Below are positions 38,565 to 46,542 of a stretch of 64,000 nt of DNA, piece by piece. The notes below the pieces were generated by a model. It searched no databases. It worked only from the letters and a program-made list of their open reading frames with translations, and was not told the origin of the DNA. The position numbers were made by a program, and so were the translations under genes. Numbering within the stretch: the first letter of the stretch is position 1; every line of letters starts with the position of its first letter. Source of the DNA: an uncultured Planctomyces sp. (GTDB lineage Bacteria; Planctomycetota; Planctomycetia; Planctomycetales; Planctomycetaceae); assembly GCA_937904325.1 (NCBI GenBank), contig CALGTK010000374.1, positions 1 through 64,000 of the forward strand, read 5' to 3'.

Positions 38565-39383
38565 ATGCGAGAGCAACCGTTTCCGACAACACTGTACGGC
38601 GAATGGAGCCCCGCGGAAGTGCAACTGCTTGATCACATTTACAAATCAAAACGCGGGCTACCCGAGATTCGGGCAGACGTCAAACAGATTTATGCAAATC
38701 TGCTCGCTGAATCACGCTCGATCTGCGAAGGCAATTTCAAGTCGATTCACAGTAAGGATCTCGAGATTCTGTTCTCAAAGTACGATGAAATGTTCTTCGA
38801 CGGCCTCCTGTATGAAACGATTGAGCGGTCCGGCGAGCCGATCTCATTTCGTGTTTCCAAGCGAATGACGAAAGTCGGCGGGACGACGACAAAGTATCAT
38901 ATGGCTCGCGGCCCTGGTCCGCAGTCGTCGTACGAGATTGCTATCTCTTCGACGCTTCTCTTTTCGACATTTTATGACGTCGATCGGCCGGTCAACGTAA
39001 CCGGTATCGAATGCCGGGATCGTATCGAATGTCTGCAGCGGATCTTCGAACACGAACTGATCCATCTGACGGAGATGTTAATCTGGGATGATTCGAGCTG
39101 TTCTCGACAGCGATTTCAGTCGCTCGCTTTTCAGTTTTTTACTCATACTGAAGCTACGCATCAGTTGATCACGCCCGGTGAGCGAGCGAGCGAGAAATTC
39201 GGCATCCGAACCGGCGACAAGGTTCAATTCTGCATTGACGATGCCTGCTACGAAGGTTTCGTCAACCGAATTACCAAACGGGCAACCGTGCTGGTCGAGG
39301 ACGATTGCAGCCCGCTTTACTCTGACGGAAAACGTTACGCCAAGTACTATGTTCCGGTCGCGAAGCTCGAGCGTGTCGGCTGA
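38565..39383 (+). CDS. SprT-like zinc metalloprotease
   Basis: This 272-aa protein has the SprT/SPRTN-type motif 'HELIH' (His163, Glu164, His167), with a possible third ligand in 'THTEATHQLI'. The region before it ('FSKYDEMFFDGLL', 'SFRVSKRM') fits the N-terminal lobe of this family, in which a small core sits beside an HExxH helix. The C-terminal 60 residues form a beta-rich domain ('GDKVQFCIDDACYEGFVNRI', quoted in part) that looks SH3-like. Eukaryotic SPRTN digests DNA-protein crosslinks; the role of bacterial SprT proteins is poorly known. It lies 317 bp upstream of the ExbB-like gene on the same strand. Confidence 0.85.
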   Translation: MREQPFPTTLYGEWSPAEVQLLDHIYKSKRGLPEIRADVKQIYANLLAESRSICEGNFKSIHSKDLEILFSKYDEMFFDGLLYETIERSGEPISFRVSKRMTKVGGTTTKYHMARGPGPQSSYEIAISSTLLFSTFYDVDRPVNVTGIECRDRIECLQRIFEHELIHLTEMLIWDDSSCSRQRFQSLAFQFFTHTEATHQLITPGERASEKFGIRTGDKVQFCIDDACYEGFVNRITKRATVLVEDDCSPLYSDGKRYAKYYVPVAKLERVG

Positions 39384-39700: not shown

Positions 39701-40402
39701 ATGTATGCCCTTGAAACAATCTCCGACCCGCTCGCCGTCGCCAATCTGCTCGACAGTCTTTCGGGGCTGTCGACGTTGTTGATCGTCGGCCTGTTCGCGA
39801 TACACCTGTTCGCGTTCTTCGTCCTGTGGGTCTGGTGGCGGCGGGATCTACGCGCCATTGCTTCGTCACTTGACGAATTCACTCGCGGAATCCGACAGCG
39901 CAGCCTGATGGACAGCAGCGCTCACCTTTCCGAACAGGTCGAGGCGTTTCTGGCTGACGTCAAGGAAACTCTGGAATCCACCGGAAACTCGCAGGACCGC
40001 CACACTCTTTATCACCGGATGGCGATTCTCGATGAGAAGCGACGCTACCTCAGCTCGATGTTTTTCGAGACGAGCTACAACATCTGTCGAACCATGATCG
40101 AGGCGTACCCTCTCCTTGGAGTTCTGGGAACAATCCTCGCCATCGGAGCTGCCCTGCAAACGGGAGACGGTGGCAGCGCGTCGGCTTCCGTTGGCGTGAT
40201 CGTCAGCCGATTCGGCGATGCCATCTGGTCGACATTCGCCGGACTGACCGCGGCCGTGCTGCTGATGTTTTTAAACAGCGCGCTGGAACCACGTTTCCAA
40301 CGCCTGGCAGAAAACCGTGGCAACGTCCGGAAGACTGTCGCTCATGCCAAACGTGAACTCGCGATTGGAACCGCAAACTCGCAGCCGGAGATCCCGCAGT
40401 GA
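39701..40402 (+). CDS. MotA/TolQ/ExbB-like proton channel subunit
   Basis: This 233-aa membrane protein has a first membrane segment (LSTLLIVGLFAIHLFAFFVLWVW, about 22-45, quoted in part here as a helix), a cytoplasmic loop, and the two family segments: 'YPLLGVLGTILAIGAAL' (about 138-155) and 'FGDAIWSTFAGLTAAVLLMF' (about 173-195). Those two contain the conserved 'P-L-L-G-x-x-G-T' and 'T-x-x-G-L' residues that line the proton path. Its last codons overlap the next gene by 4 nt (GTGA), so the two products are almost certainly partners. In such pairs the channel subunit drives a rotating or pulling partner with the proton gradient. Confidence 0.85.
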   Translation: MYALETISDPLAVANLLDSLSGLSTLLIVGLFAIHLFAFFVLWVWWRRDLRAIASSLDEFTRGIRQRSLMDSSAHLSEQVEAFLADVKETLESTGNSQDRHTLYHRMAILDEKRRYLSSMFFETSYNICRTMIEAYPLLGVLGTILAIGAALQTGDGGSASASVGVIVSRFGDAIWSTFAGLTAAVLLMFLNSALEPRFQRLAENRGNVRKTVAHAKRELAIGTANSQPEIPQ

Positions 40403-41244
40403 CGTCACGCCGGCTGACATTCCAGCTGACCCCACTGCTGGATCTGCTTCTGATCGTGATCTTCGCACAGTTTCTGGACGTGCGTGACACGACGACGGAA
40501 CGTGAGCAATTGACGTCGACGCAAGTGGCAACTGCTGACCAGGAACTGGCCGCCACTCAGGATCAACTTGCAAAGATCATCGCCGAGAAAGATAAAGTGG
40601 AAGCCGATCGTGAGTTTCTGCGGAAATCGCTTCAGGAGTTGAAGGCGTCGAAAACCGGCCTGGAAATCGAACGAAAGTCGCTCGAAGAAGCTCTGAAGCG
40701 TGCGAACGAGCAACGTGACACCGTCGCCAGCCTGGTTGCCGATCTGTTCGACTTACCGGACCAAACGATCAACGAGTTACTCCGAACTCGCGCGCCGGAA
40801 AACGTTCGTTTGACTCCGGAACAGGTCGAGCGACTGCGCGAGGAATTTAAGTCGTTCGCCAAGCAGAACCCCGGCGAGTCTGTCCGGCATCTGCTCACGT
40901 TCGAAGAGCTGCGCAAGCGATGCGACATCTGGGAAATTTACATCAACGACACCGGCCAGACGGTGTTCTCAGGGTGCGGTCAGACGCACACATTTCGAGC
41001 GGAAACGACTGAAGAATTCGCCTACGAGCTTTACGAGCGGTATAAAACCTTGCCCCAGCCAAAAAGTCTGGTGATCATGCTGCTTTCCTATGGCGACGTA
41101 AAAGCATCGGTTTACGAAGCTGCTGTTGATGGTCTGCCGGTCGTAGCCGAGCGAATGCGATCTGACCAGAGCGGCCGCTCCCGCTTCGAATACGCGGTCC
41201 TCGGCTTCAACCCGTCGCCGCCCGTCGTGCCGACGGTCGAGTAG
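40399..41244 (+). CDS. ExbD/TolR-like partner with a long coiled coil
   Basis: This 281-aa protein has one N-terminal membrane segment, 'LTPLLDLLLIVIFAQFL', with Asp15 at the place of the essential ExbD/TolR/MotB aspartate. It is followed by about 85 residues of coiled coil (residues 31-115, rich in Glu, Lys, Ala and Leu heptads, e.g. 'DQLAKIIAEKDKVEADREFL'). A folded C-terminal domain follows (about 135-275: 'WEIYINDTGQTVFSG', 'PKSLVIMLLSYGDVKASVYE'). Ordinary ExbD is about 140 aa and has no coiled coil. The pair with the upstream ExbB-like protein is therefore an energy-coupled complex of unknown cargo. It lacks the nuclease/helicase genes that would mark it as Zorya. Confidence 0.75.
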   Translation: MTSRRLTFQLTPLLDLLLIVIFAQFLDVRDTTTEREQLTSTQVATADQELAATQDQLAKIIAEKDKVEADREFLRKSLQELKASKTGLEIERKSLEEALKRANEQRDTVASLVADLFDLPDQTINELLRTRAPENVRLTPEQVERLREEFKSFAKQNPGESVRHLLTFEELRKRCDIWEIYINDTGQTVFSGCGQTHTFRAETTEEFAYELYERYKTLPQPKSLVIMLLSYGDVKASVYEAAVDGLPVVAERMRSDQSGRSRFEYAVLGFNPSPPVVPTVE

Positions 41245-41261
41245 GTCAGAAGTCGGCCTAC
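41241..41261 (+). terminator. Bidirectional hairpin terminator
   Basis: GTAGG and CCTAC pair across an 11-nt loop between the convergent ExbD-like and mandelate racemase-like genes, whose ends are only 14 bp apart. On the plus strand it is followed by ATTTGTTTA. The stem is short, so strength is doubtful. Confidence 0.4.
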
Positions 41262-42451
41262 ATTTGTTTAGGGCTGATCGGGAAATGCTCTTCCGCAACC
41301 GCTACTCTTTTCAGTGCAGCCTCATCGATTGAAACGCCCAACCCCGGTTGCGTCAGAGCGGGAGCAATGCCTCGACGCCCCCAAGTCAGGTTTTCGTGGG
41401 TGAGCCGTTCCTTAACGAGGAACGAATCGTAGCTGCCTTCGAGATATCGAATGTCGCCAACACTCGCGGCGAAGTGCCGACCGGCAGCACTGAGAATTCC
41501 GGTCTCGCCGACTTGACAGCCGAGTTGGTAGCCAAATCCGGCCTGATGTGCCGTCGCGGCGATCTTGAGCGAATTCAGGAAGCCACCGCACTTTGAAATA
41601 CGAATATTGAAGAGATCGCAAAGCCCAGACTCAACTGCCCGCTGGCCGTCTTCCACACTGCAGAGTGACTCGTCGAGCATGATCGGTGGGGCAATGTTTG
41701 GACGAATCTTTGCAAGGCCATCGATTTCAGTGTGATGAACCGGCTGTTCGATCGACGTGATATTGAACTTCTCCAGAGGCTCAAACTTCGATTCCATGTT
41801 TTTGCAAGTCCAGGCTTCGTTGGCATCGATACGAAGATCCATCTGTGGACCAACGAGTCTGCGAATCCTTCGCAAAGAAACCTCGTCGTCAACGTTCTCG
41901 ACTCCGACCTTAACCTTCGTCTGGTGAAACCCGTGAAGCCAGATCAGGAACGATTTGATGCGTTGCTTAACCGGCGAACTGGATGTGATGACCGCGCTGT
42001 ACTGAACTTCGTCTTGTGCGTTCCGGATTCCGGCGGCAGGCCCGAAAAGCGAAGTGATTGCAGACAGCGGAATTTCGGATGCTCGACAAACGGCGCTAAG
42101 GATGCTCAGTTCGACCGCGCATCGGATTGAGTTTCCAAAACAGTTTCTTGGGTCGGCTTCTGGGCGAGTCAGTTCAAATCTCTCGCAGACGTCTATTGCC
42201 GCTTCAGGACTTTCCAGTTCTGAATCAAGCTGTTGAGCTAACGGAGTGTCGCGGAGCAATTCGAACGCCGAGTCGATCGTTTCGCCAGTGACATATTCGC
42301 GCGGAAGCCCCTCGCCCCAACCTTCGGTTCCATCGGCCAGTCGGCACCGAACGACTAACGAATCAGTCATCCGCCGAGTGTACGAGGCGTGACGGATCCT
42401 GGTCTTCAACGGAATCTGAACGTGGTAGGCGATGAGCTCGGTAATTCGCAC
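41258..42451 (-). CDS. Enolase-superfamily enzyme, MLE/dipeptide-epimerase-like
   Basis: This is a 397-aa TIM-barrel enzyme of the muconate-lactonising subgroup. It has the lysine pair 'K-x-K' in 'TKVKVGVENV', three metal ligands in 'DLRIDANEAW' (Asp), 'SIEQPV' (Glu) and 'MLDESLC' (Asp), and the second catalytic Lys in 'IRISKCGGF'. This is the arrangement of o-succinylbenzoate synthases, dipeptide epimerases and N-acylamino acid racemases. The exact reaction cannot be read from sequence. It sits 156 bp downstream of a second enolase-superfamily gene on the same strand. Confidence 0.87.
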   Translation of the reverse strand: MRITELIAYHVQIPLKTRIRHASYTRRMTDSLVVRCRLADGTEGWGEGLPREYVTGETIDSAFELLRDTPLAQQLDSELESPEAAIDVCERFELTRPEADPRNCFGNSIRCAVELSILSAVCRASEIPLSAITSLFGPAAGIRNAQDEVQYSAVITSSSPVKQRIKSFLIWLHGFHQTKVKVGVENVDDEVSLRRIRRLVGPQMDLRIDANEAWTCKNMESKFEPLEKFNITSIEQPVHHTEIDGLAKIRPNIAPPIMLDESLCSVEDGQRAVESGLCDLFNIRISKCGGFLNSLKIAATAHQAGFGYQLGCQVGETGILSAAGRHFAASVGDIRYLEGSYDSFLVKERLTHENLTWGRRGIAPALTQPGLGVSIDEAALKRVAVAEEHFPISPKQM

Positions 42452-42607: not shown

Positions 42608-43687
42608 TTACGCGATCGAGAAATGTTCAAGTTTTTCGACGTCGCCTTCGATGCCAAGGCCCGGCATTGTGGGAACTCGCATTCGCCCGTTCTTGATCTC
42701 AAATGGTTCTTTCAGAATATCGTCGGCGAGCCCGAAGTACGTGCAGTCATTGGCCAGCGAGTATGACGGGCAGGCCGCCGCGATGTGGAGCATCGCTGCT
42801 GTTTTGGGACCGAGGTCGTGGCCGCAGTGCATGATGCACGGAATGTTGGCCGCTTCGCAGAGATGGCCGATCTTGACGCAAGGTAGAATTCCGCCAGCGA
42901 TATGAGTGTCTGGAAGGATGTGCGACGCGGCGTCTGCCAGAAATATCTGCGAGACGGTGTCGGGGCCGACGACGCTTTCGTTCAGAGCGATCGGGACCGA
43001 GGTTTGCTCTCGCAGCCATTTCGCGTCCGAGAGCGGTTCCGCATGAATTGGCTGCTCGAAGTATTCGAGGTCGTAGTCTTCGAGTTTCTTTGCCAGGTCC
43101 GCGGCCTGTAGTGGCGAGTAGGCTCGGTTGGGATCGATTCTTAGTTTCAGTTTGTCGCCGACGGCGTCGCGGATTCCTCGCACCATGTCCAGATCCTCTT
43201 TCGCGTCCGAACCCGCTTTGGTTTTGAGCGTCGTATAACCCTGCTCGACGTAAAGTGCGGCGATTTCGCCAGCGCGTTCGTAAGTCTGAATCCCCATGCA
43301 GGCGGCGAGTTCGATTTCTTCTCGAATGACGCCGCCAAGAAGCTGAGCAACGGACATGTTCGCCGCTTTACCGGCGATGTCCCACAACGCGAGTTCCAAC
43401 CCAGCTTTCAGTCGAGATTCGAACGGACACTCAAGGTGGAACAGAGCGATGTTCAACGGGTCACGACCCACCGACCACTCGGTAGCGTCCTTCTGCATGC
43501 GTCCCAGATCGAGTCCGGGCAGGAAGTTGAGATTGCACTCACCCCAGCCACTGACACCTTCGTTCGTGTCGATTCTTGTGATCGCTTTGGTCGTGGTAGA
43601 ACTTGTGCGAATGTGGGAACGATACGGCGCAATTGGTTCGACTTGCGGAACTTCCACAAGCCACATGGAAACTGCAGAGATTCTCAT
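42608..43687 (-). CDS. Enolase-superfamily enzyme, mandelate racemase-like
   Basis: This 359-aa protein starts at ATG 43687 (AAGGACA upstream); the frame is open further to 43738. It has 'K-T-K' in 'TTLKTKAGS', metal ligands in 'LRIDPNRAY' (Asp), 'YFEQPI' (Glu) and 'ALNESVV' (Glu), then 'PDTHIAGGI' and 'MHCGHDLG' in the positions of the general-base Asp/His region. This places it nearer the mandelate-racemase/sugar-acid branch than its neighbour. The substrate is unknown. The two enolase-superfamily genes in a row may act on related acids or peptides and probably share a transcript. Confidence 0.85.
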   Translation of the reverse strand: MRISAVSMWLVEVPQVEPIAPYRSHIRTSSTTTKAITRIDTNEGVSGWGECNLNFLPGLDLGRMQKDATEWSVGRDPLNIALFHLECPFESRLKAGLELALWDIAGKAANMSVAQLLGGVIREEIELAACMGIQTYERAGEIAALYVEQGYTTLKTKAGSDAKEDLDMVRGIRDAVGDKLKLRIDPNRAYSPLQAADLAKKLEDYDLEYFEQPIHAEPLSDAKWLREQTSVPIALNESVVGPDTVSQIFLADAASHILPDTHIAGGILPCVKIGHLCEAANIPCIMHCGHDLGPKTAAMLHIAAACPSYSLANDCTYFGLADDILKEPFEIKNGRMRVPTMPGLGIEGDVEKLEHFSIA

Positions 43688-44203
43688 TGCCTGTCCTTCA
43701 ACTTGGTTGCAACTGCACCGGTCAGAAAGCCAGTTCAATCTGACTGTCTACTCGCTCCAAGAATGGAAATTCACCGGTAAGTTCAGCACGCGGAACGTGC
43801 TTCCTGACCCTCAGGTGAATCCCTCCGACGTAATCATGGCGGGACGTTTTTATTAGCATAACTCCGACATTCTACTTGCCAGGCAATCTTTTCTGAACCA
43901 GTAGATTGAACCTGTACAGCCCAGACCGGACCGGACATCAATTCGGGGGAAATAAATCCCTCCCGGTCTACGTCGATCCCGATTTCGTGGTCCGAGTGTG
44001 CCGATTTTTCTGGACATAGATGTCAGTTTCTGACGGGCGGACGGTCTGCTGTGTCAGCATGTTTCGATACGACCGACGAAAAGCCTGCATGCAGGCCGGT
44101 ATGTCGGTTGAGGCACTGTGTCGCCGATCTGTCCCTCTTTGGCTTTCGATGCAACGCTCTGTTCCTCCAATTAATCGTACACGGGAATCGGGAAGAATCA
44201 GTC
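43688..44203. other. Gap between divergent genes
   Basis: About 500 bp with no recognised gene. The ORF reading 44051-44203 in frame with the downstream gene shows no ribosome site. A perfect 14-bp palindrome lies at 44083-44096. Promoters for both divergent genes should lie here. Confidence 0.4.
44083..44096. repeat. Perfect 14-bp palindrome
   Basis: GCCTGCATGCAGGC is its own reverse complement, with no spacer. It lies 107 bp upstream of the coiled-coil protein start and could be an operator, but it is also short enough to arise by chance. Confidence 0.4.
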
Positions 44204-45265
44204 ATGTCGCAGGAAAGAATGTTGAACTTCATCGCGGCTCAGTTGACAGTCGTCATCGTGATGCTCGGAGTTGGGTTGTACCGGATGGCTGACAATTCAA
44301 ACCCGCAATCATTTGCAGCTAGCCAGACCGCGACATCATTTGACCGGTCCGTCTTGCTGCCTGCAGGCAAACCGTCGCCGCAAGTCTCTCGACACACTTC
44401 AATTTCGGGTGGGGCGACCTGTCAAACGTCGGTTGCCGAGTTGTCTCTGCCTGAGATTACCCGGCGTGAACACCTGCTGGACGATTCTCGCGAGCGAATT
44501 GCATCAACGACAGAAGTCCAAACGGCGAAAGGTCGGCACGTCGAGTCACAGACTCTGCTTGCCAGTCAGACAGAAACGATTAATCAATTAAGAGCCACGC
44601 TTCAAAATGTAGACCAGAGGTTGGATCAGACTCGTCATGAACTGAATGAAACAACGACTCGCGTTGAAAAATTCCACGGGAGCCTGCGTTTTCGCCGCCA
44701 GCAACTGATTCAAAATGCGCTCGGTAATGTCTTTGAGCATTACGACAGGACACTGAAGACAGCAGAAAAAGAACGCGATGAACGCAACCAGAGACGACGA
44801 CGTTTGGGCAGTCAGCCATCCACTTCCTCGGAAGCGGAATTAACGCGATCAATTAGTCGAAATGCGAGAACAGCGGCGGGAAAAACACTGTTACAATTCA
44901 TCATGGCAGAGGAAAAGGCGATCGACAGCGAGCGAACAGCATTGGAAAACCAGATTTCAAGGACCAGCGAGTCACTGGAAAATTTGCGTCAGACGCGTGA
45001 CCAAACTGCCCATGAACTGAACCGCGTCATAGCTAATATTCCGACCGGCCGCGAAGATATTGGCGAGAATTACGAACGATACCAGATGCGAAAAAGAGAA
45101 CAGGCTGATCTGGGCGACCCGAAAAACAGTCACGGAGTAAAGTCGCCCGATGCGTTTGCGAATCATCAGCCTCCGCCCGTCACCAGTTATCTGTATTTGC
45201 CGCGGAACAGACCAGCCCCTGGTTCCATCGGAACATATGACGAAAAATATAAGGTCGTTCGATAA
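44204..45265 (+). CDS. Single-pass membrane coiled-coil protein, unknown
   Basis: ATG 44204 (GGGAAGAA upstream) begins a 353-aa protein with one membrane segment at about residues 10-27 (AAQLTVVIVMLGVGLYRM). A Ser/Thr-rich linker and two long coiled-coil stretches follow (about 110-190 and 225-300, e.g. 'LRATLQNVDQRLDQTRHEL'), with Arg/Glu-rich joins. The C-terminal 45 residues are Pro-rich. I recognise no family. It is probably an envelope or structural protein. Confidence 0.65.
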   Translation: MSQERMLNFIAAQLTVVIVMLGVGLYRMADNSNPQSFAASQTATSFDRSVLLPAGKPSPQVSRHTSISGGATCQTSVAELSLPEITRREHLLDDSRERIASTTEVQTAKGRHVESQTLLASQTETINQLRATLQNVDQRLDQTRHELNETTTRVEKFHGSLRFRRQQLIQNALGNVFEHYDRTLKTAEKERDERNQRRRRLGSQPSTSSEAELTRSISRNARTAAGKTLLQFIMAEEKAIDSERTALENQISRTSESLENLRQTRDQTAHELNRVIANIPTGREDIGENYERYQMRKREQADLGDPKNSHGVKSPDAFANHQPPPVTSYLYLPRNRPAPGSIGTYDEKYKVVR

Positions 45266-45377: not shown

Positions 45378-45663
45378 GTGAGCACGTCGTTCATTCAGTG
45401 CTGAGTTCAAACAGGATGCCGTTGACCTTGTCGTCAAGCAGGGTTACTCATTCAAGGCGGCGGATGCCGTTGGTGTTGCAGCGAAGAGTCTCAGGGATTG
45501 GCATGCGAAGCTGACTCCAGCGACTGCGTCGTGTGATGACGACGCCTCGGTTGCTGTGCTGCAGGATGAGATCAAGCGTCTCAGATAGCTGCTGCTGCGG
45601 GCTTTAATGGAACGTGAAATCTTAAACAAAGCCACGGCGTATTTCGCAAGGGAGTCACCTTGA
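45378..45663 (+). pseudogene. IS3 OrfA remnant
   Basis: The remnant reads with an early frameshift after the probable GTG at 45378, then 'FSAEFKQDAVDLVVKQGYSF' and 'VGVAAKSLRDWHAKL', a helix-turn-helix of the IS3 OrfA type. A TAG codon then falls inside the leucine-zipper end ('EIKRLR*LLLRALMEREI'), where CAG or similar is expected. The frame ends with TGA at 45661, overlapping orfB as usual. Confidence 0.75.
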
Positions 45664-46542
45664 AGTACGCATGGATCAAGCAGCATCGTGACTCGGTTTT
45701 GGTGACGTCGATGTGTCGTACTCTCGATGTCAGCACAAGCGAATACTATAAGATGGCTGAAGGCGGTCCTGGCTTGAGGGCTCAACGGTCAACTCGAATC
45801 CGCATATCGATCAGGCAGGTGCACGACGAGTCCCGCGGGATATACGGCAGTTACAAGATTGCTGATCGACTTAAGGGTGAGGAGTTTCTGGAAGCTGCAT
45901 GCCGTAAGACTGTCGCCACGGCGATGCGTGAAATGGGACGAAGCAAGGTGTTAAAAACGTTCTCGTCGACAACAACCGTTTCTGATTCAGCAACAGCGGC
46001 CGCACCAGATGTTCTCAACCAGTCCTTTGACACGGAGCTCCGAACAGCAAGTGGGTGAGCGACATCACGTAAGTGCAAACGGCGGCGGGCTGGTTTTATC
46101 TGGCTGTTGTCCTGGACCTGTACAGACGCAAAGTTGTGGGCTGGGCGATCTCAGAAAGCCTCGCCACACCACTGGTCCGCTCGGCTCTTCGTAACGCCGT
46201 TGAGTCGCGGAAACCCGACACGAACGGCTTGCTTCATCACAGCGATCGAGGCTCGCAGTACACCAGCGATGACTACCAGCAGACTCTGAAAACTCTCAAC
46301 ATGACCTGCTCGATGAGTCGTACCTGTTGCTGCGTACGACATCGCCGTCATGGAGCGTTTCTTCTGGTCGCTCAAGCATGAGTGGACGAAGTTCGAATCC
46401 TTCGTTGACATCACACACGCAAGACTTCAGTGTGTTTCAGTACATCGAAACGTTCTATAACTCAAAGAGAATCCATCAGACTTTCGGATACCGAATATCC
46501 GACGAATTCGAAGAACACCACCACGCAAAAAACGCCGTCTAA
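45661..46542 (+). pseudogene. IS3 OrfB (DDE transposase) remnant
   Basis: The HTH_21-type N-terminus ('YAWIKQHRDSVLVTSMCRTL', then 'SRGIYGSYKIADRL') runs to a frameshift near 46055, shortly before the first catalytic Asp ('DIT'). The catalytic core continues in another frame ('HHSDRGSQYTSD'). A further shift near 46320 is followed by 'MERFFWSLKHEW' and 'FQYIETFYNSKRIHQTFG' in a third frame, ending 'EEHHHAKNAV'. It cannot make a transposase. Confidence 0.8.

Follow-up and report, generated by a model that had tools for sequence, protein, structure and literature searches.

The locus considered here lies in a window of 64,000 nucleotides, the whole stretch of DNA that was analyzed, from an uncultured Planctomyces sp. 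It raises the question of what kind of machine is encoded by a channel gene of the MotA/TolQ/ExbB type (gene A) and an overlapping partner with a long helical extension (gene B), and what such a machine might energize. A sequence-only reading had described the two genes as a pair that stands alone and may power an envelope or defense function. The pair is indeed alone within the window, but in relatives it is accompanied by a third gene, referred to here as C, which was missed because in this genome it has been relocated to another contig. The features of the locus are collected in Table 1.

Table 1. Coordinates and properties of genes A and B in the window
Feature	Position	Strand	Description
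Gene A, ExbB/TolQ-like pentamer subunit	39701..40402	+	233 aa, three TM segments, ATG 39701 to TGA 40402
Gene A pore residues			Glu134, Pro137, Thr144 (TM2); Thr178 (TM3)
Gene B, long-stalked ExbD-like axle	40399..41244	+	281 aa, GTG 40399 to TAG 41244
B transmembrane helix	40414..40497	+	about residues 6-33; Asp15 codon 40441-40443; hydropathy
B helical stalk	40498..40746	+	residues about 34-116; predicted one helix, continuous with TM helix (AF2)
B C-terminal folded domain	40921..41208	+	residues 175-270, predicted bbbabab (AF2)

Gene A displays three hydrophobic segments in its hydropathy profile and is recognized by the Pfam family MotA_ExbB (PF01618) with 37.4 bits, against a cut-off of 22.9. 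Its profile matches the structures 6ye4 and 7ajq, which we take to be Serratia ExbB. The alignment places TM2 (PLLGVLGT) and TM3 (STFAGL) on the ExbB pore helices, with both pore threonines aligned, which agrees with the pore segments first read from the sequence. Thr144 and Thr178 are the counterparts of the pore-lining threonines of ExbB and TolQ, and each is found in 75/75 homologues. These threonines, one in TM2 and one in TM3, are Thr148 and Thr181 in ExbB and Thr145 and Thr178 in TolQ (for the roles of Asp and Thr, see PMC12905483, PMC12215075). Gene A also harbors Glu134, which precedes a conserved aromatic-Pro and is present in 74 of the 75 homologues as well as in distant genomes; this residue is a signature of the branch to which gene A belongs.

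The start of gene B overlaps the stop of gene A by 4 nt (GTGA), as had been reported from the sequence. The sole hydrophobic segment of B in its hydropathy profile is LTPLLDLLLIVIF, and the Asp15 within it aligns with the TP(M/L)(I/L)D motif of ExbD, occupies the position of the ExbD Asp and is retained in 74/74 homologues. With its single N-terminal membrane helix and an apparent proton-carrying Asp, B thus looks like an ExbD/TolR partner, and the earlier assignment of Asp15 is upheld. As both Asp15 of B and the pore threonines of A are intact, A and B are likely to form an ExbB/ExbD-type motor powered by protons.

Beyond the membrane, B departs from its relatives. It extends for 266 residues after the Asp, against 113-139 in the canonical ExbDs of this genome; the sequence-only reading had given ordinary ExbD/TolR as half the size. 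An AF2 model built on the 74-sequence alignment predicts an unbroken helix from residue 10 to 116, with pLDDT 92-98 for most of its length, followed by further helices up to residue 174. The stalk past the membrane is predicted to span about 84 residues; taking 1.5 A per residue, a straight helix of this size would measure about 12 nm. The distance from Asp15 to Trp178 varies from 99 to 173 aa across the 74 homologues, and hence the length of the stalk varies too; these mostly helical residues between the Asp and the folded domain contrast with the linker of about 20 disordered residues found in ExbD and TolR (PMC12905483). The sequence-only reading had placed about 85 residues of coiled coil here. 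A helix of this length is supported by the model, but the heptad pattern is modest: 19 of 1000 shuffles score as well, and the median heptad z over 72 B orthologues is 1.8. Since this periodicity exceeds that of the shuffles only modestly, the evidence favors the term long helix over classical coiled coil, and the latter may not apply along the whole length.

The divergence of B is also apparent in family searches. In profile comparisons with the ExbDs of this genome only the membrane motif of B could be aligned. The ExbD/TolR family PF02472 does not include B among its matches above the cut-off in its own genome, and gives any match at all to just 3/74 B homologues, with a best E of 0.015. 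Pfam searches of B and C homologues gave chance matches to coiled coils but otherwise no family that recurred consistently. With both proteins below the PF02472 cut-off, B and C are classed as ExbD-like rather than as ExbD.

The C-terminal domain of B, spanning residues 175-270, is predicted with pLDDT of about 92-98, and Trp178 and Gly269 are invariant among homologues. It had been described as a new domain, a view that is not supported. Its bbbabab order of elements is, in the predictions, the same as that of the domain of C, which matches ExbD/TolR, though the best matches of the B domain itself are not specifically to these proteins. In a fold search it matches TolR 5by4 with Z 6.9 (83 residues, 3.7 A), level with unrelated folds at 6.8-7.8, and several RNase H-like folds also resemble it.

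The pair is widespread in the family to which the window belongs. B was found in 65 of 68 Planctomycetaceae genomes within a sample of the class, in which it was also weakly detected in two genomes of another family. The named relatives, all from this family, are Gimesia, Schlesneria, Planctomicrobium, Fuerstiella, Thalassoglobus, and Alienimonas. A is directly upstream of B in 74/74 public loci, nearly always with an NTGA overlap, and the genes of the unit are single-copy. Between the window and five congeners, A has a dN/dS of 0.03-0.06 and B one of 0.06-0.09, and purifying selection on the two genes is strong. Taken with the family-wide presence and the retention of the NTGA overlap, these low ratios of 0.03-0.09 indicate that A and B are real genes. 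The A-B-C order is also found, with highly diverged sequences, in two genomes of another family of the same class (G039 and G044) and in two from other families of the phylum (G283 and G553).

The third gene, C, is an ORF encoding about 150-180 aa that lies 3' of B on the same strand in 48/74 public loci, some of the others being truncated by contig ends. Within the genus of the window C is unlinked from B and is found elsewhere as a single copy; in this genome (G000:C187:34782-35246) its neighbors are an FHA-like gene on one side and a large ORF on the other. In four congeners C follows response-regulator-like and FHA-like ORFs (L169:7302-9258 on the same contig), a genus-specific link, and different genera do not share the surroundings of the relocated gene.

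C tracks B closely. Among 77 genomes of the family, C is present in 71 of the 72 that contain B and in 1 of the 5 that do not, a co-occurrence for which the hypergeometric chance is about 2e-5 when the relatedness of the genomes is ignored. In one genome (G209) B is present and C was not detected. A separate case is G144 (L200:7077-7742), where C is present and A and B were not detected, representing either an assembly gap or an orphan C. Across the 48 loci the pairwise distances for the three genes correlate at 0.76-0.88, as would be expected for genes that are inherited together. The claim that the pair stands alone therefore applies to the window but not to the family, where C follows B or co-occurs with it from elsewhere.

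This co-occurrence bears on another account of the locus, in which A and B would make up an ordinary ExbB/ExbD motor serving a TonB or TolA encoded elsewhere, with the helix as a lineage-specific spacer and C as a loosely connected gene. Such an arrangement would fit with tonB often being unlinked from exbBD (PMC12204202) and with the differences in stalk length among B homologues. However, it sits poorly with the nearly one-to-one relationship between B and C, with the failure of PF02472 to recognize B at its cut-off, and with the existence in this genome of at least three further exbB-exbD cassettes, and we regard it as improbable.

C comprises a membrane helix and a C-terminal domain joined by a low-complexity linker. 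In the model the linker has low confidence and is followed by a domain at residues 66-153 with a pLDDT of about 95. A three-part layout is common to TonB and TolA and to the vWA transducers that were proposed recently (PMC12204202), and the modeled C, with its membrane helix, linker, and folded C-terminal domain, resembles TonB and TolA in this respect. The domain itself is predicted to have the periplasmic fold of ExbD/TolR: its top matches are 8vgc (Z 8.8, 2.4 A, 72 aligned) and 5by4 (Z 8.8, 3.1 A, 80 aligned), followed by 8p9r, 8pek, and 8vgd at Z 8.4-8.7 and 2jwk at 6.8. Ranked by Z, the first six solved structures are thus all ExbD/TolR periplasmic domains, and the first unrelated chain scores 6.2.

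A second ExbD-like protein beside an axle invites the suggestion that C is half of that axle, with B and C forming a heterodimer that derives from exbB-exbD-exbD' cassettes and has one proton-carrying Asp per axle. Cassettes of this kind are found on at least three contigs elsewhere in this genome, including C33, C77, and C283, and their gene order is paralleled by A-B-C. The composition of C, with one membrane helix, a linker, and an ExbD-fold domain, is also that of an ExbD, and the C proteins of distant genomes align along the ExbD domain. In profile comparisons, C aligned with the ExbDs of this genome over a short stretch alone and with distant C sequences over 60 columns with 22% probability. 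Yet an acidic residue (D/E) is found within the membrane helix of just 1 of 48 C sequences, and the helix lacks the TP-x-x-D motif. With nearly all sequences lacking an acidic residue in the helix, an ordinary second ExbD is unlikely. ExbD and TolR are, moreover, reported as symmetric dimers in solved motors. The heterodimeric axle is thus unlikely, albeit slightly less so than the ordinary motor with an unlinked TonB or TolA, and the role of C is most likely that of a transducer in the place of TonB or TolA. The SHLS motif (SxHxLxS in the membrane helix) is absent from all 48 C sequences, so a TonB- or TolA-like mode of binding to A has no support from this motif.

Mining of the neighborhoods of the 74 loci found no conserved fourth gene, and no tonB, tolA, tolB, pal, or defense gene recurs widely beside the unit. 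The sequence-only reading had proposed a search of planctomycete relatives and their neighbors, and no standard Tol/Exb unit with tonB or tolA nearby emerged from it; judged by its recurrent neighbors, the unit is neither a Tol-Pal operon nor a linked Ton unit. Recurrent neighbors beyond A and C are merely local. An example is a metX/metW-like methionine pair, found in 9-12 of the 74 loci and located directly upstream of A-B in L095, L097, L098, L100-L102, L108, L119, and L124, which probably reflects a neighborhood of shared ancestry.

Upstream of A is a genus-restricted gene (window 38565-39383) with a weak match to SprT-like metalloproteases (E 0.001, below the cut-off), which adjoins A within the same genus alone. 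Downstream are two adjacent minus-strand ORFs (41258-42451 and 42608-43738) that belong to one similarity cluster and which, by reading only, we take to be enolase-superfamily (mandelate racemase/muconate-lactonizing)-like. A further ORF (44051-45265) encodes a 404-aa orphan that probably has a membrane anchor at its N terminus and contains long helical segments; a Pfam search found no clear family for it, and a similar ORF is absent from the compared loci. Next to this orphan, the ORF at 45660-46058 resembles, again by reading only, an IS3-type transposase of which a portion is left, apparently through truncation.

The Zorya anti-phage system (ZorA-ZorB) is also a MotA/ExbB-type motor whose partner bears an Asp, and it too has a long helical extension, so a Zorya-like motor was considered. 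In Zorya, however, the coil is on the channel subunit ZorA and nuclease/helicase genes follow, whereas in A-B-C it is the periplasmic partner that bears the stalk, no such neighbors are present, and the unit is part of the core genome. That the pair differs from Zorya had already been noted at the outset. The best PADLOC match to ZorA has E 0.079, and the PADLOC matches of B look like coiled-coil artifacts. A single-copy unit present in 65/68 genomes of the family, with no fourth gene conserved in 74 loci, makes a Zorya-like function very improbable. A defense system in general was rejected on similar grounds, the PADLOC match being negligible and no nuclease/helicase companion being conserved; near-universal, single-copy presence without such neighbors is the behavior of a housekeeping system. 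Of the two roles first suggested, defense is therefore unlikely, and an envelope function of A-B-C remains the likely one.

The reading that we favor, and consider reasonably probable, is that of a 5:2-type motor, powered by the PMF and belonging to the ExbB/ExbD superfamily, with a stalk of about 12 nm and an Asp-free, ExbD-fold C in the place of TonB or TolA. Both the 5:2 stoichiometry and the rotation are presumably shared with solved relatives, from which they are taken over (PMC12215075, PMC9389320, PMC12905483). Five copies of A would surround two of B, and protons would move between Asp15 of B and the ring of Thr144 and Thr178 of A, thereby turning the B dimer. The helical stalk would convey this rotation far into the periplasm, along with both C-terminal domains. 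C, which has an uncharged membrane helix and a flexible linker and would be anchored beside the motor, would engage the head of B or its linker and pass force to an envelope target.

In many respects this arrangement mirrors the Ton (ExbB-ExbD-TonB) and Tol (TolQ-TolR-TolA) systems, which likewise have a channel with two pore threonines, an axle with a membrane Asp, adjacent genes, and a third single-TM subunit with a linker and a folded domain. It differs in the stalk of B, in the predicted ExbD/TolR fold of C and its lack of SHLS, and in that tolB, pal, or receptor genes are not conserved nearby. The flagellar MotA-MotB motor provides, by analogy, a 5:2-type proton motor layout for A-B, but the OmpA-like peptidoglycan-binding domain was not found in B by the Pfam scan. 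Another parallel is found in the tolQ-tolR-tolR' clusters of the PVC group with vWA force transducers (PMC12204202), which occur in the same phylum and in which two distinct single-TM partners likewise come after a TolQ-like gene. In A-B-C, however, only the first partner, B, bears the Asp, along with its long stalk, while C has neither a vWA domain nor SHLS and a TPR gene is not conserved upstream of A.

We found no description of the A-B-C unit in the literature, and the main text of a paper on essential genes in P. limnophila makes no mention of Exb, TolQ, Tol-Pal, or MotA (PMC10632474). The evidence for A-B-C as a conserved gene set is strong, its reading as a motor is well supported, and the role proposed for C is plausible. 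The unit is real and is apparently a variant of the ExbB/ExbD motor family, with three components, that has not been described before. More tentatively, and as a possibility held with rather less confidence than the motor itself, the unit may represent an undescribed class of trans-envelope, PMF-driven motors in Planctomycetota, in which a rotating B with a 12 nm stalk works with C as an Asp-free, ExbD-fold transducer and the two belong to an envelope machine that is core to the Planctomycetaceae, instead of or alongside Tol-Pal. The periplasm of planctomycetes is enlarged, and P. limnophila can do without peptidoglycan genes that are essential elsewhere (PMC11958385, PMC10632474). A near-universal, single-copy, long-stalk motor with a new third subunit is a candidate for energizing or stabilizing the planctomycete outer membrane. 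The unit would add to the force-transducing partners known for ExbB/TolQ motors, and its Asp-free, ExbD-fold C bears on the relation between TonB/TolA-like subunits and second ExbDs.
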